11,303 nt of DNA from Desulfobacteraceae bacterium (lineage in GTDB: Bacteria; Desulfobacterota; Desulfobacteria; Desulfobacterales; UBA11574): positions 1-11,303 of the forward strand of contig JAOUGB010000032.1 of NCBI GenBank assembly GCA_029857875.1, in the 5' to 3' direction. Position numbers and translations under genes: made by a program. The notes beneath the pieces are model-generated. The model saw only the letters and a program-made list of their open reading frames with translations. It searched no databases and was not told where the DNA came from. Numbering within the stretch: position 1 is the first letter of the stretch; the number at the start of each line of letters is the position of its first letter. This document shows positions 3,250-9,044 of this stretch, piece after piece.

Positions 3250-4160
3250 CAAAAAATACCGGTACAGATTTCGAGGCAGATAATTACCAAACCGGCTATA
3301 TTTGACGTCTTGTACGGGCCGATATAGCTGGCACCGCCCACCATTTCGGACATCGGCAGAGCGATTAGATTAAAATTAATTATGGCGCCGCCGAGAGCGA
3401 TCATAAGAACAGCGCCGGAAATAAAAAACTGAGTCAGCGAAGAGGAAGAAAGCGTTCGCATGGCCGTGTCGGTCTGTTCGCGGATCTGTTCATAGTTGTC
3501 CATGTAACGATCGATCCGTTTTGCCCGAAAGTTCAAATCAGACAAGGATTTATTCAAACTGCCGAGGGTCTTTTTTATGCCGCGCACTAGGGGCAGCATT
3601 CGATTGAGGATCGCATGACGTTTGGAAGCATCCACACGGTGCTGTTCGAGCGCTTTTATGTGCTGTTCGGATAAAGTCTGATGAATGTCATCCAGCATAT
3701 TGCCGACAATAGGGTCATTGCTGGGTCGAATGCTCGCAATCGCTTTAATGACCTTAACCCAGTCAGGCAGCGTCTGAGGAATTTCAACGCTATTTTGGTA
3801 GTCTTCGTCCAGTTTGACGAGGCCCTCGTTCAACTGGCGATGAACCTGAGGATACCCCTCCAGGTCTCGTTGTACCGCAGTGCTGATACGTTCAAACTCC
3901 CTTTCCACACAACGTTCGGCATGTTGCCGCCCGACACTGAGCAATACATCCCGGTTTCGATCGTTCAGGCGCTTTTCAGCCAGTTTGACTGAAGTAGCAA
4001 AAAGCCGCATGCTATTTCGAATAATCAGGCTAAAAGATGCCAGGCAGCGATGACTCGGTTTACGCGCCAAATACATGGCTGCAAGGATTAAAATGATCCA
4101 TATGAAGGTGGAAAGAAAGGGGCTGGCGGTAATCGTTGGTAAGAATCCGGCGGTTGTCAT
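3249..4160 (-). CDS. Coiled-coil membrane protein of unknown function, riboswitch-controlled
   Basis: A 303-residue protein I cannot assign to a known family. It has an N-terminal membrane helix (about 13-32), then a long charged, mostly helical cytoplasmic or periplasmic region (about 60-240) rich in Glu, Arg, Gln and Lys and likely to form coiled coil. A second helix follows (about 245-267), and a third begins at 286 but is cut off by the stop after GIF. The start at 4160 is chosen because GGGAGGTG sits 5 nt upstream; a GTG 11 codons earlier has no such site. It is the first gene after the cyclic-di-GMP riboswitch and terminator. The stop overlaps the next frame in TGATG at a T6 run, and the half-made last helix suggests that the natural product continues into the next gene. 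Confidence 0.82.
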   Translation of the reverse strand: MTTAGFLPTITASPFLSTFIWIILILAAMYLARKPSHRCLASFSLIIRNSMRLFATSVKLAEKRLNDRNRDVLLSVGRQHAERCVEREFERISTAVQRDLEGYPQVHRQLNEGLVKLDEDYQNSVEIPQTLPDWVKVIKAIASIRPSNDPIVGNMLDDIHQTLSEQHIKALEQHRVDASKRHAILNRMLPLVRGIKKTLGSLNKSLSDLNFRAKRIDRYMDNYEQIREQTDTAMRTLSSSSLTQFFISGAVLMIALGGAIINFNLIALPMSEMVGGASYIGPYKTSNIAGLVIICLEICTGIF

Positions 4161-4225: not shown

Positions 4226-4267
4226 AAAATAGAAAACGCCTAAGTACCTAATTGTATGAAGGCGTTT
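4226..4267 (-). terminator. Riboswitch expression-platform intrinsic terminator
   Basis: On the minus strand AAACGCCT (4260-4267) pairs perfectly with AGGCGTTT (4234-4241) around an 18-nt loop and is followed by the U-rich tract TTTTCTATTTTC (4225-4236). It begins only 3 nt after the aptamer's closing helix and lies 66 bp before the first gene of the operon, where a transcription-attenuating expression platform would be. Six loop bases, GGTACT (4243-4248), can pair with GGTACC (4271-4276) at the aptamer's 3' edge, suggesting an antiterminator alternative. Confidence 0.8.
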
Positions 4268-4270
4268 GCT

Positions 4271-4365
4271 GGTACCTTTCGGTAGCCCGGCTATCATGGC
4301 CTTTGGAGCTTTTGACCCGTGGCTTTGCGTCACTGCCTTTCGACAGCTTTGCCCTTTCGTTGGTA
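4271..4365 (-). promoter_or_regulatory. Class I cyclic-di-GMP riboswitch aptamer (GEMM-I)
   Basis: The minus strand carries the conserved GEMM-I core in order. First comes GGGCAAAGC, then helix CTGTC/GGCAG capped by a GAAA tetraloop (about 4334-4347), then GTGACGCAAAGCC (about 4321-4333). A spacer leads to the second arm containing TAGCCGGGCTACC (about 4282-4294), which matches the tetraloop-receptor side. A closing helix can form from TACC (4362-4365) and GGTA (4273-4276). By alignment to the Vibrio cholerae Vc2 aptamer, the two ligand-contacting positions appear as G (before CAAA) and C (in CTACC), which favours cyclic di-GMP over the cAMP-GMP variant. Known members control motility, surface and envelope genes. 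Here it precedes the membrane protein/vWA operon, with a promoter just upstream and a terminator just downstream. Confidence 0.92.
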
Positions 4366-4383
4366 TAATTATTATTGCGATGT

Positions 4384-4412
4384 ATGATAGAACACTTCGA
4401 AGACGAAGTCAA
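4384..4412 (-). promoter_or_regulatory. Sigma70-type promoter of the riboswitch operon
   Basis: On the minus strand a -35 TTGACT (4407-4412) and a -10 TATCAT (4384-4389) each match consensus at five of six positions, with the ideal 17-nt spacer. The predicted start is near 4376-4379, about 12 nt before the aptamer's closing helix, so the transcript would begin almost directly with the riboswitch. Confidence 0.65.
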
Positions 4413-6005: not shown

Positions 6006-9000
6006 CTACCATTTTACAGGTATACGCACTGTTTTTTTGGCCCTGTTTTGAAAAAGCAGATACCCGTTTTTTTGACCATACAGAAAAAGATCTCTCGTTA
6101 TCTCCACATCTTTTTTGCAGTAATCGATGATTTCCCGTATCCGTCCCTGTTTCCACCATTGAAGGGCCTGAAGGCCGTCCGCCGTCTTTTTCTGACCCAG
6201 GGTCACTTTGGCAAGATGATCCAGAGAGAGTCTGTAACCGAGTCGATTGTGGACGTCTTCGAGGATATCTAAGGTGGGAAGTTTTTCAAAATTAAAATCC
6301 GAATATCCGGCAAGCACCCTGAAATCAAATCGTTTGACATTGAACCCCACCACCAGATCGCATTTTTTAAAGTGTTCGATGAGCTGATCCACCTGATCAT
6401 CTAAAAACTCGAAATATTGATCTTTTTTTGAATCATACAATACTGCACAGCTCATTTTCATCAAATCCGCCCGATGCCAGCCGCCCACTTCCTGGGCAGA
6501 TCGCTGTGTCTCGATGTCGAAGATACAAAATCGAGTATCAGATGCGTTGACCGGAGCCCGGGCTATTGAAGGGGTTTTACACGCTTCTTTGAATGCCCTG
6601 CGCCTTGCGAGCATTCTTTTTCGCAGCCGCCCCTTGTGACCGGCAGATCTTTTGCCCCGATCCATTACCGTTTTTTTCTTCTGAAACAATGCAACCTTTT
6701 CAGGGGGACGAAATTCTTTTTCTTTAGACCATGTATCTGCCGGATATGTTTCCGGCGTTGCAGCCTCTTGCGCTGATATGAGTTTGTCCAACAGAAAAAT
6801 CGCTGAAGCCTTGTCAATGGGCCGGTTTCCGGAACCGCATTTTGGGGAATGCACACACGACGGACAACCGGTTTCACACGGGCACGCGCGGATCACTTTA
6901 AATGTATTTTCAAGAAGTTCCGTTGCTTTTTTAAAGGCCTGTCTGCTCAGGCCGGCGCCCCCAGGAACCCCGTCGTAAATAAATACCGAAGCACTTCCCA
7001 CCTGGGGATGAAGCACGGTGGAAATGCCCCCGAGGTCATTTCGGTCCGCCATCACCAAAAGGGGAAAAATACCGATGGCCGCATGTTCAATGGCGTGAAT
7101 CCCTCCCATAAAATGTAAATACTGTGCTTCAGCTTGTCTTTGAATCTGAACAGGAATTTTAAACCACAGGCCTTCGGTCTCAAATATCAGCGGCGGAAGC
7201 GTCAGCGGCGTGATGCTCAACTTTTTTTTGGCATGTATCCGCCATTTTTCATATCCCGTAACTTGATCTGTAACTTTAAGTCGTCCGAAATAACAAATTG
7301 TATTCAATAGGTCTTTAGTATCATATATTTCGAGTATTTCCGTATTTTTCTCAGACCGCACCCGGGTATAGTAATCGACCTTGGCCCTGGACACCTTTAC
7401 GGTCTTTGTGTCCAGATCCAGGGTGTTGACCAGGAACGTGTCGCCCCTATGAAGATAAATGGCTCCGGGATGGGTTTCTTTAAAGGCCCTGAATTCATCG
7501 ATCTCACCTTTGCTTTTCCCGGTGTTTTTGCTGACAATTTGAAATCGGTTCCCCGTCCCCCTGAGATCCACATGCCGGTGGGGCGCCAGTCGGCTGGAAT
7601 AAAGTTCAGTCCCATCTCCACTTTTTAAAAGCGCACCGCTTTCCTCGAGGTCAAGTACGGCCTTTTCAACATGTTCGTCCAGCAGGAACGGTTCATTGGA
7701 TTTTAGCGGCAGTTCGGCTGCTGCACAGATGATGTGCCTGGACATAATCTCGGTATTGTGCGGGTTGATCACCGCGGCTTCGGGTTCCCGATTCAAAAAA
7801 TCCTCCGGATGCCGCATAAAATATTGATCCAGGGCATCTTCTCCGGCTATAAGCACCAAGGTGGAATCCTGTCCGCTGCGCCCTACCCGGCCGCCCCGTT
7901 GCCATGTTGCCACCACCGTTCCGGGATATCCCACCAGCAGGCAAAGATCCAGATCGCCGATATCGATTCCGAGTTCAAGGGCACTAGTGGATATCACCGC
8001 CAACAGGTCACCCTTGGCAAGTTTGGCTTCGATCTCCCTTCGCTCTTCAGGAAGAAACCCTGCCCGATATGCACTGATCCGTTGTGCATAAGGTCCGGAT
8101 TGACTCCCGGCCCATATGGCGATTAACTCGGTGAGTTTTCTCGACTGGGCATAAACAATGGTGCGCAAGCCCCGGTGGAGTGCAGCTTTGAGCAAAAGTA
8201 TGGCGGTTTGTGCCGGACCCTGAACCGGGTTGATAAAGACAACATGTTTTTTGCCCAAAGGGGCACCGCTTTTTGTGATGGTTTCGACCTTCAGGCCTGT
8301 GAGCTGCTCAGCAAGCTGGGCAGGATTGGACACGGTGGCCGAACAAAAAACAAATGTCGGATCAGCGCCGTAAAACGAGCATATCCTTTGAAACCGTCTG
8401 AAAACCTGGGCCATGTGCGAGCCCATGATTCCCCGATAAGTATGCACTTCATCCACCACCACCATGTCCAGATTGCAAAAAAAATCAGCCCATTTTTGAT
8501 GATGGGGCAACAGTGAAAGGTGGATCATTTCAGGGTTGGTCAAAAGAATATTGGGCGGGGCCTCCCTTATCCGTTTTCGATACCAGGCAGACGTATCTCC
8601 GTCGTAAATGGCAATTTTAGGTTTTACGTCTTTGTTGTGTTTCATTAGGGCTTCAAATGTACGAAGCTGATCCTGGGCAAGGGCCTTTAAGGGAAAAATA
8701 TACAGTGCCTTGGAATCCGGATTTTTTAATATATTTTCCACTACAGTGAGATTGTAAATAAGCGTCTTGCCGCTGGCTGTGGGGGTCGCAACCACCAGAT
8801 GACGTCTGGACCGGATGAAATCGATGGCATCCGCCTGATGCCGGTAAAGATCTCGTATGCCTGCGGATTGAATCATACGATCTATTATTTTAGGCCATGG
8901 TTTCTCTGGTTTTGATACCCGAGCAGGGTGATCCGGCAATACGGTGTGATAAACCACCTGGTTTCCCATGCGTTTGGATGAAAGGAGGGATTGGATATAT

Positions 9001-9044
9001 TCTTTTATATCATTTTTTTCTTGCATTAACTCGATAAATTGCAC
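6006..9044 (-). CDS. mrfA: MrfA-type (YprA-like) DEXH helicase with DUF1998, fused to an MrfB-like DEDDy exonuclease
   Basis: A 1012-residue cytoplasmic DNA-repair enzyme, by family. The N-terminal superfamily 2 helicase has Walker A ATPTASGKT (86-94), DEVH (198-201), SAT (235-237), the motif V region STSALELGIDIGD (352-364) and motif VI QRGGRVGRSG (382-391). A DUF1998 region follows, with the cysteine cluster C721, C723, C727, C730 and C736, a probable metal site. A basic linker (about 785-830) leads to an RNase H-fold exonuclease: D843 and E845 in FDIET, D907 in RFDFRVL, and Y975/D979 in YCKKD, the full DEDDy set. In Bacillus subtilis the helicase MrfA and nuclease MrfB are separate proteins that repair mitomycin C damage; here they are one chain. 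The start is GTG at 9044; ATG at 9026 is an alternative, and neither has a clear Shine-Dalgarno. Confidence 0.92.
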   Translation of the reverse strand: MQFIELMQEKNDIKEYIQSLLSSKRMGNQVVYHTVLPDHPARVSKPEKPWPKIIDRMIQSAGIRDLYRHQADAIDFIRSRRHLVVATPTASGKTLIYNLTVVENILKNPDSKALYIFPLKALAQDQLRTFEALMKHNKDVKPKIAIYDGDTSAWYRKRIREAPPNILLTNPEMIHLSLLPHHQKWADFFCNLDMVVVDEVHTYRGIMGSHMAQVFRRFQRICSFYGADPTFVFCSATVSNPAQLAEQLTGLKVETITKSGAPLGKKHVVFINPVQGPAQTAILLLKAALHRGLRTIVYAQSRKLTELIAIWAGSQSGPYAQRISAYRAGFLPEERREIEAKLAKGDLLAVISTSALELGIDIGDLDLCLLVGYPGTVVATWQRGGRVGRSGQDSTLVLIAGEDALDQYFMRHPEDFLNREPEAAVINPHNTEIMSRHIICAAAELPLKSNEPFLLDEHVEKAVLDLEESGALLKSGDGTELYSSRLAPHRHVDLRGTGNRFQIVSKNTGKSKGEIDEFRAFKETHPGAIYLHRGDTFLVNTLDLDTKTVKVSRAKVDYYTRVRSEKNTEILEIYDTKDLLNTICYFGRLKVTDQVTGYEKWRIHAKKKLSITPLTLPPLIFETEGLWFKIPVQIQRQAEAQYLHFMGGIHAIEHAAIGIFPLLVMADRNDLGGISTVLHPQVGSASVFIYDGVPGGAGLSRQAFKKATELLENTFKVIRACPCETGCPSCVHSPKCGSGNRPIDKASAIFLLDKLISAQEAATPETYPADTWSKEKEFRPPEKVALFQKKKTVMDRGKRSAGHKGRLRKRMLARRRAFKEACKTPSIARAPVNASDTRFCIFDIETQRSAQEVGGWHRADLMKMSCAVLYDSKKDQYFEFLDDQVDQLIEHFKKCDLVVGFNVKRFDFRVLAGYSDFNFEKLPTLDILEDVHNRLGYRLSLDHLAKVTLGQKKTADGLQALQWWKQGRIREIIDYCKKDVEITRDLFLYGQKNGYLLFQNRAKKTVRIPVKW

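Follow-up and report, generated by a model that had tools for sequence, protein, structure and literature searches.

A GEMM-I riboswitch, probably responsive to cyclic di-GMP, precedes a two-gene envelope operon in a Desulfobacteraceae genome and recurs before the same operon in relatives

A riboswitch can reveal the signal that is answered by a gene of unknown function. Which signal, then, governs the unnamed envelope operon on the minus strand of the window, as the whole analysed stretch of 11,303 nucleotides is called here, and in which direction does it act? The best explanation, to which a probability of about 0.7 is assigned, is that a c-di-GMP class I riboswitch controls the two genes of this operon. 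An Rfam search of the whole window returned a sole match at E <= 1, the GEMM-I family RF01051 at 4363-4278 (81.0 bits, E 4e-15, gathering score 35), which covers the full model from position 1 to 87 and exceeds the curated gathering threshold. A GEMM-I aptamer had been claimed by the original prediction; the covariance search proposed as its check, which could have returned no significant GEMM-I score, thus bore the claim out. In an alignment of 38 aptamers from the same genome and its relatives, 97.8% of the helix cells are paired and 14 of the 21 pairs changed on both sides; for each of these two values, none of 500 shuffles was as high, and slid versions of the alignment scored far lower. 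Judged by its sequence, the window element is an ordinary member of the known GEMM-I class, and it is very probably the c-di-GMP riboswitch of the envelope operon. Aligned to RF01051, the selectivity nucleotide at model position 11 (4353) is a G, as in the c-di-GMP type, rather than the A that marks the cGAMP-binding GEMM-Ib members. We take model position 11 to be nucleotide 20 (the G20 equivalent), and the ligand-pairing C at 4282 is presumably the equivalent of C92. The G20A change is described in the available text of PMC6274999 as the one that lets GEMM-I bind cGAMP.

The aptamer was predicted to stand in a complete control unit, and promoter, aptamer, terminator and first gene indeed follow each other in this order on the minus strand. 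The sigma-70-type promoter (4412-4384, consensus scan) consists of the -35 box TTGACT at 4412-4407, a 17-nt spacer and the -10 box TATCAT at 4389-4384, just as it had been read originally. Promoter-like matches over the whole window are not above chance (24 versus 19.8 expected, sd 4.1). The pattern TTGACN-17-TANNNT lies 14 to 26 nt 5' of the aptamer at 9 of the 11 operon loci examined, a placing reached by 0 to 10 of 500 shuffles per locus; none was found before the aptamer in L063 and L064. The spacing of the window's promoter also occurs in L001, a paralogous copy of the control unit, and a putative second -10 box (TATAAT, 4420-4415) is kept in L018, L019 and L001. Between the riboswitch promoter and a divergent MltD-like gene, a 60-nt block (4563-4504) is almost unchanged in genomes G002 and G003.

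The intrinsic terminator expected between aptamer and first gene is present at 4267-4226 as an 8-bp stem with an 18-nt loop and a U-rich tail: AAACGCCT (4267-4260) pairs with AGGCGTTT (4241-4234), followed by TCTATTTT. Its energy of -13.1 kcal/mol was matched by none of 500 base shuffles; the consensus terminator scan accepts loops of 3 to 8 nt, and the hairpin with its 18-nt loop is absent from that list. The modelled pairing of the terminator 3' arm is 0.87 in the free leader and 0.87 with the aptamer forced, and the models predict that the terminator can coexist with the folded aptamer. Equilibrium folding with the aptamer forced gave no sign of ligand-dependent terminator switching, the 3' arm hardly changing in the window, L018, L019, L001, L020, L021, L116 and L157; at L087, its pairing climbs from 0.77 to 0.94. 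Since terminator pairing is indifferent to the aptamer in these folds, the predicted sign of the switch rests on the Shine-Dalgarno model and on topology. A clear antiterminator of the Cd1 type was sought in the window leader and not found, which counts against the best explanation. Upstream of the promoter, GCGTTTGCCC (4443-4434) offers an 8-nt complement to the terminator 5' arm and also to GGGCAAA of the aptamer; it is kept in L018 and L019 and absent from the paralogous copy L001. In a longer transcript, it might act as an antiterminator.

The leader includes a further element, a 7-bp Shine-Dalgarno hairpin that the original prediction did not mention. Downstream of promoter, aptamer and terminator follow a small hairpin (AGTTCAT/ATGAGCT, 4221-4202, from folding), the anti-Shine-Dalgarno/Shine-Dalgarno hairpin and the ATG at 4160. 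The Shine-Dalgarno sequence GGGAGGT (4172-4166) is sequestered by pairing with 4200-4194, which belongs to the strand ACCTCCCGTGG (4200-4190); in this strand, the anti-Shine-Dalgarno motif ACCTCCC overlaps a complement of CCACGGG of the aptamer (4322-4316). Only 7 of 1000 shuffles paired as strongly with the Shine-Dalgarno sequence, and 13 of 1000 were as strong for the pairing between aptamer and leader strand. With the aptamer forced, the modelled accessibility of the Shine-Dalgarno sequence in the window falls from 0.32 to 0.02, a drop equalled by 0 of 150 shuffles, and drops as large as the observed ones occurred in 2 of 150 shuffles for L020 and 4 of 150 for L116. The effect is weak in L019 (9/150), L018 (18/150) and L021 (26/150), which counts against an OFF model; in L018 and L019, the site is nearly closed without the aptamer already (0.07 and 0.06). 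It is reversed in the paralogous copy L001, for which 149 of 150 shuffles were at least as high and whose anti-Shine-Dalgarno strand has lost one base.

What does this leader precede? The first open reading frame (ORF1, 4160-3252, 303 codons) encodes an N-terminal transmembrane segment and a coiled coil, and the second (ORF2, 3252-2671, 194 codons) further transmembrane segments. Relatives of ORF1 are mostly near 497 amino acids long (among 120 matches listed of 3586), and ORF1 and ORF2 align end to end on these relatives; going by this alignment, the two frames are halves of one broken protein, here called gene A. The frame breaks at a run of six T (3256-3251), where the ortholog at L018 has seven, and we attribute the break either to an error in the sequence or to a mutation of recent date. 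In gene A, a hydrophobic segment at the N-terminus is joined by a long helical region and by five more hydrophobic segments. No curated family was found for it: an intact relative (P0002) had no Pfam match, and matches among 32 members were weak and scattered. A PDB sequence search gave unconvincing matches (best E 0.0045), and a fold assignment was dropped, as the AlphaFold2 model of A2 was poor (pTM 0.30) and Foldseek returned nothing at E <= 0.001. The second gene (2671-2021) encodes a vWA lipoprotein of 216 amino acids with a lipobox cysteine, Cys18, and a DxSxT motif. Its AlphaFold2 model (pTM 0.81) shows a vWA fold, for which Foldseek found named vWA domains in the PDB, e.g., that of CLCA1 (E 4e-6, TM-score by query about 0.5). 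Pfam VWA_2 matches 11 of 30 family members, the window protein itself being without a match. The lipobox cysteine and the metal-binding residues are kept in 30 aligned sequences; read with the MIDAS motif DxSxS/T...T...D, which we take to mark the metal-ion residues, D33, S35 and T37 are nearly invariant and T114 and D142 invariant. Both identities given in the original prediction, a coiled-coil membrane protein and a vWA lipoprotein, are therefore upheld, but the frame of the first gene is broken, which splits it over two ORFs. The lipoprotein gene lies directly 3' of gene A in 74 of the 77 named loci with enough DNA and is missing after gene A at L038, L049 and L078; L043, L063 and L083 were left out of this count, as their sequence ends too early.

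Gene A is present in 69 of 389 genomes of the order. Upstream DNA, at least 248 nt in each case, was inspected in 62 of the 69; the other seven are G124, whose 201 nt showed no aptamer, and G011, G129, G183, G201, G217 and G302, whose upstream DNA was truncated or not retrieved. A GEMM-I aptamer precedes gene A in eight of the 62 genomes (G000, G002, G003, G051, G093, G133, G300 and G330), while the other 54 carry gene A without an aptamer in front, which counts against the best explanation. Eight of the best 80 of 277 named loci have the aptamer (L018, L019, L020, L021, L063, L064, L083 and L087), five of which correspond to genomes G003, G002, G300, G330 and G133. The search for the same arrangement in relatives, which had been recommended, thus found it in 11 genomes altogether: eight in the order, including that of the window, and three on distant branches. 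Every counted aptamer exceeds the gathering score of RF01051 or RF03167; matches below threshold at L105 (12.7 bits), L124 (12.4 bits) and L212 (16.5 bits) were not counted. A quick maximum-likelihood tree was built from 80 gene A rows, of which 9 have an aptamer, 66 lack one and 5 have too little upstream DNA; L049, G000 and G093 are absent from it. The aptamer label has to change five times on this tree, and at least four of these changes are forced by starred branches. Going by this tree, the aptamer was either gained several times before the operon or lost many times. Distant relatives appear to have brought the gene pair under the control of these switches on several independent occasions, and this suggests that the pair genuinely belongs to the outputs of cyclic di-GMP signalling. 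A chance pairing of aptamer and operon was considered and rejected, as eight of 62 is far above a rate of about one aptamer per thousand genes; the eight fall in few lineages. Altogether, the 69 gene A genomes contain 302 aptamer matches, about four per genome. A GEMM-I match (E <= 0.001) occurs in all 69 of them versus 281 of 389 genomes overall, a comparison that is uncorrected for kinship and carries little weight.

The neighbourhoods of gene A were grouped into gene clusters, of which one member each was scanned. Genes for MCP, HAMP and partly CheW proteins lie near gene A at L020, L021, L024, L026, L027, L045, L058 and L078, and a PilZ-domain gene at L032, L035, L037 and L049. These neighbours also hint at motility and c-di-GMP.

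The operon aptamers differ in their selectivity nucleotide and in the design of their terminators. The window and L018 to L021, L116, L087 and L157 combine a G at position 11 with a terminator that is separate from the aptamer. An A at this position is found at L063, at L064 (3806-3897) and in both aptamers of L083, which are arranged in tandem. At these three loci, the lower terminator stem uses the aptamer 3' strand with the ligand-pairing C, so that ligand and full terminator would be mutually exclusive and an ON switch is predicted; in constrained folds, the upper part of the terminator hairpin persists. The GGDEF enzymes of the same genomes were compared, with G133 left out, only motif-readable matches counted and the place of the Hypr specificity position within the search motif being our assumption. 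Serine at this position together with GGDE[FY] occurs in three of three genomes with A-type operon aptamers (G396, n=2; G397, n=2; G398, n=1; the genomes of L063, L064 and L083). A serine-type domain is found in two of seven tested genomes with G-type operon aptamers, G002 (AGDEF, one of three readable domains) and G093 (GGDEF, one of ten), and is absent among the readable domains of G003 (0/4), G051 (0/7), G300 (0/7), G330 (0/7) and the window's genome G000 (0/3), where three of five GGDEF matches are readable and all have the canonical aspartate. The Hypr signature of GGDEF domains is described in the available part of PMC6456294. Taken jointly, these features tentatively suggest that the operon may have been wired several separate times to riboswitches for two ligands and of opposite sign: a c-di-GMP type with a coexisting terminator, predicted OFF, in the Desulfobacterales, and a cGAMP type with an overlapping terminator, predicted ON, on three distant branches with Hypr-like GGDEF enzymes encoded in their genomes. 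Such a joint reading is held with somewhat less than even confidence. Elsewhere in G000, an A-type (cGAMP) aptamer at L007 (729-807, contig C129) precedes a response regulator and an M1 peptidase, in a genome in which no serine-type GGDEF domain was read.

How would the window riboswitch work? Transcription would begin a short way upstream of the aptamer. When c-di-GMP is abundant, the aptamer would fold; the terminator could then form, and the strand 4200-4190 would be available to block the ribosome-binding site, thereby switching the operon off. At low c-di-GMP, the same strand could pair with CCACGGG of the aptamer, the site would open, and the operon would be made in the low-c-di-GMP state. 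An OFF switch is slightly favoured because the modelled Shine-Dalgarno accessibility drops when the aptamer is forced and because the terminator coexists with the aptamer as in Cd1. The reverse sign, in which termination is relieved by c-di-GMP and the operon belongs to the outputs of the sessile state, as in the Geobacter pilM design, is a possible though less probable reading. It would fit the shared strand of terminator stem and aptamer at L063, L064 and L083; moreover, GGTACC of the window (4276-4271) can pair either with TACC of the aptamer or with GGTACT of the terminator loop, which might allow ligand-dependent antitermination. However, terminator and aptamer occupy separate stretches in the window and form side by side, L018 has not kept the GGTACC/GGTACT pair, and the Shine-Dalgarno model points the opposite way.

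That the aptamer binds its ligand with little regulatory consequence is improbable: that the aptamer is repeatedly associated with this operon and that the layout of promoter and aptamer is kept argue for function, although in the L018 and L019 models both the terminator and the Shine-Dalgarno hairpin are formed by default, and Bc1 of Bacillus thuringiensis, whose response is masked by a second terminator according to the text available from PMC11218506, provides a precedent. The broken frame of gene A at the T run, which also counts against the best explanation, could mean that the operon has become a pseudogene or was misassembled, in which case the control unit would have no useful target in this genome. 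We consider this unlikely: in an assembly of 722 contigs, a homopolymer that differs by one base may reflect an error in the sequence, the frame is open in orthologs at 90-97% identity, and the lipoprotein frame is intact. It is very unlikely that the ligand is 3',3'-cGAMP instead of c-di-GMP. GEMM-I does include cGAMP-type members, one of which, L007, lies in the same genome; the window aptamer, however, has G at position 11, and none of the three readable GGDEF domains of this genome, which is 87% complete, is of the serine type.

The control unit itself has a second copy. A stretch of 268 alignment columns, from before the promoter to the Shine-Dalgarno sequence, recurs with 91% identity on contig C94 of G000 before a different gene; this second unit of promoter, riboswitch, terminator and Shine-Dalgarno sequence (L001, 1436-1697) precedes a gene for an envelope-like protein that has no Pfam match. 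Both sites are present in G002, where the second copy is L189 (contig C398). Inserts of more than 100 nt interrupt the unit in G004 and in the second copy of G002; at L164 (G004, contig C77), the insert falls within the P3 region of the aptamer, and the following ORF resembles, by eye, a cyclic-nucleotide-binding protein. The unit therefore looks like a module that was duplicated. In the window's genome (722 contigs, 87% complete), there are seven GEMM-I matches. Downstream of the remaining six, the closest plausible ORFs, in part several hundred bases distant, encode a protein that looks envelope-like by eye and lacks a Pfam match, a response regulator, a flagellar rod-type protein, an SMP-30-like protein, a PEP-CTERM protein and, last, a response regulator followed by an M1 peptidase. 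At L064, another c-di-GMP-I-GGC aptamer (6281-6355) lies shortly after the vWA gene and precedes, as read by eye, a small Cys-rich ORF and a two-component system. Elsewhere in the window (6006-9044), a DEAD-box helicase with an MZB domain is fused to a C-terminal RNase H-like exonuclease domain.

As a conserved, unnamed pair that is repeatedly placed under cyclic-dinucleotide riboswitches, the two genes probably belong to the motile-sessile programme in sediment bacteria. The operon is worth following as a conserved envelope pair under recurrent riboswitches of possibly two ligand types and opposite sign; setting its c-di-GMP-type versions beside the cGAMP-type ones would tell whether a single output can be rewired from one second messenger to another. 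The leader offers a direct and cheap handle on the ligand and on the motile-sessile role.

In the available parts of the literature, Geobacter riboswitches target cytochrome, pilus and polysaccharide genes (PMC6456294). Among the matches listed in searches of titles and abstracts of open-licence PMC papers, none describes a GEMM-I riboswitch before such a gene pair, nor do the accessible portions of PMC9140294, PMC11124144 and PMC8835794; this agrees with the earlier statement that control of the pair by GEMM-I was not described, and within these searches the operon is new as a recurrent riboswitch target. The lipoprotein model matches the folds of the vWA proteins BatB and NorD (Foldseek E 7e-6 and 1e-5); the identity to these proteins is 13-18%, however, and no known partner is matched by gene A. 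With the RF01051 class, the window shares the full aptamer with its conserved core and helices, the position in the 5' UTR and the downstream terminator, whereas the target operon differs and the leader adds a Shine-Dalgarno hairpin. The pilM riboswitch of Geobacter metallireducens is an ON switch for cGAMP in which the terminator takes the ligand-pairing C (described in part of PMC9262584); its logic is common to the distant loci L063, L064 and L083 with A at position 11, in contrast to the window with its G at this position and its separate terminator. Cd1 of Clostridioides difficile is an OFF switch in which terminator and aptamer can coexist (same portion of PMC9262584), as they also can in the window; unlike Cd1, the window has no Cd1-like antiterminator that was found and may add a translational step. 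Like the window, Bc1 has a long expression platform with transcriptional and translational elements, but, as far as covered by the available part of PMC11218506, it possesses two terminators and is proposed to expose its ribosome-binding site at low ligand while terminating. The terminator and the Shine-Dalgarno element of the window, in contrast, are predicted to act in the same way.
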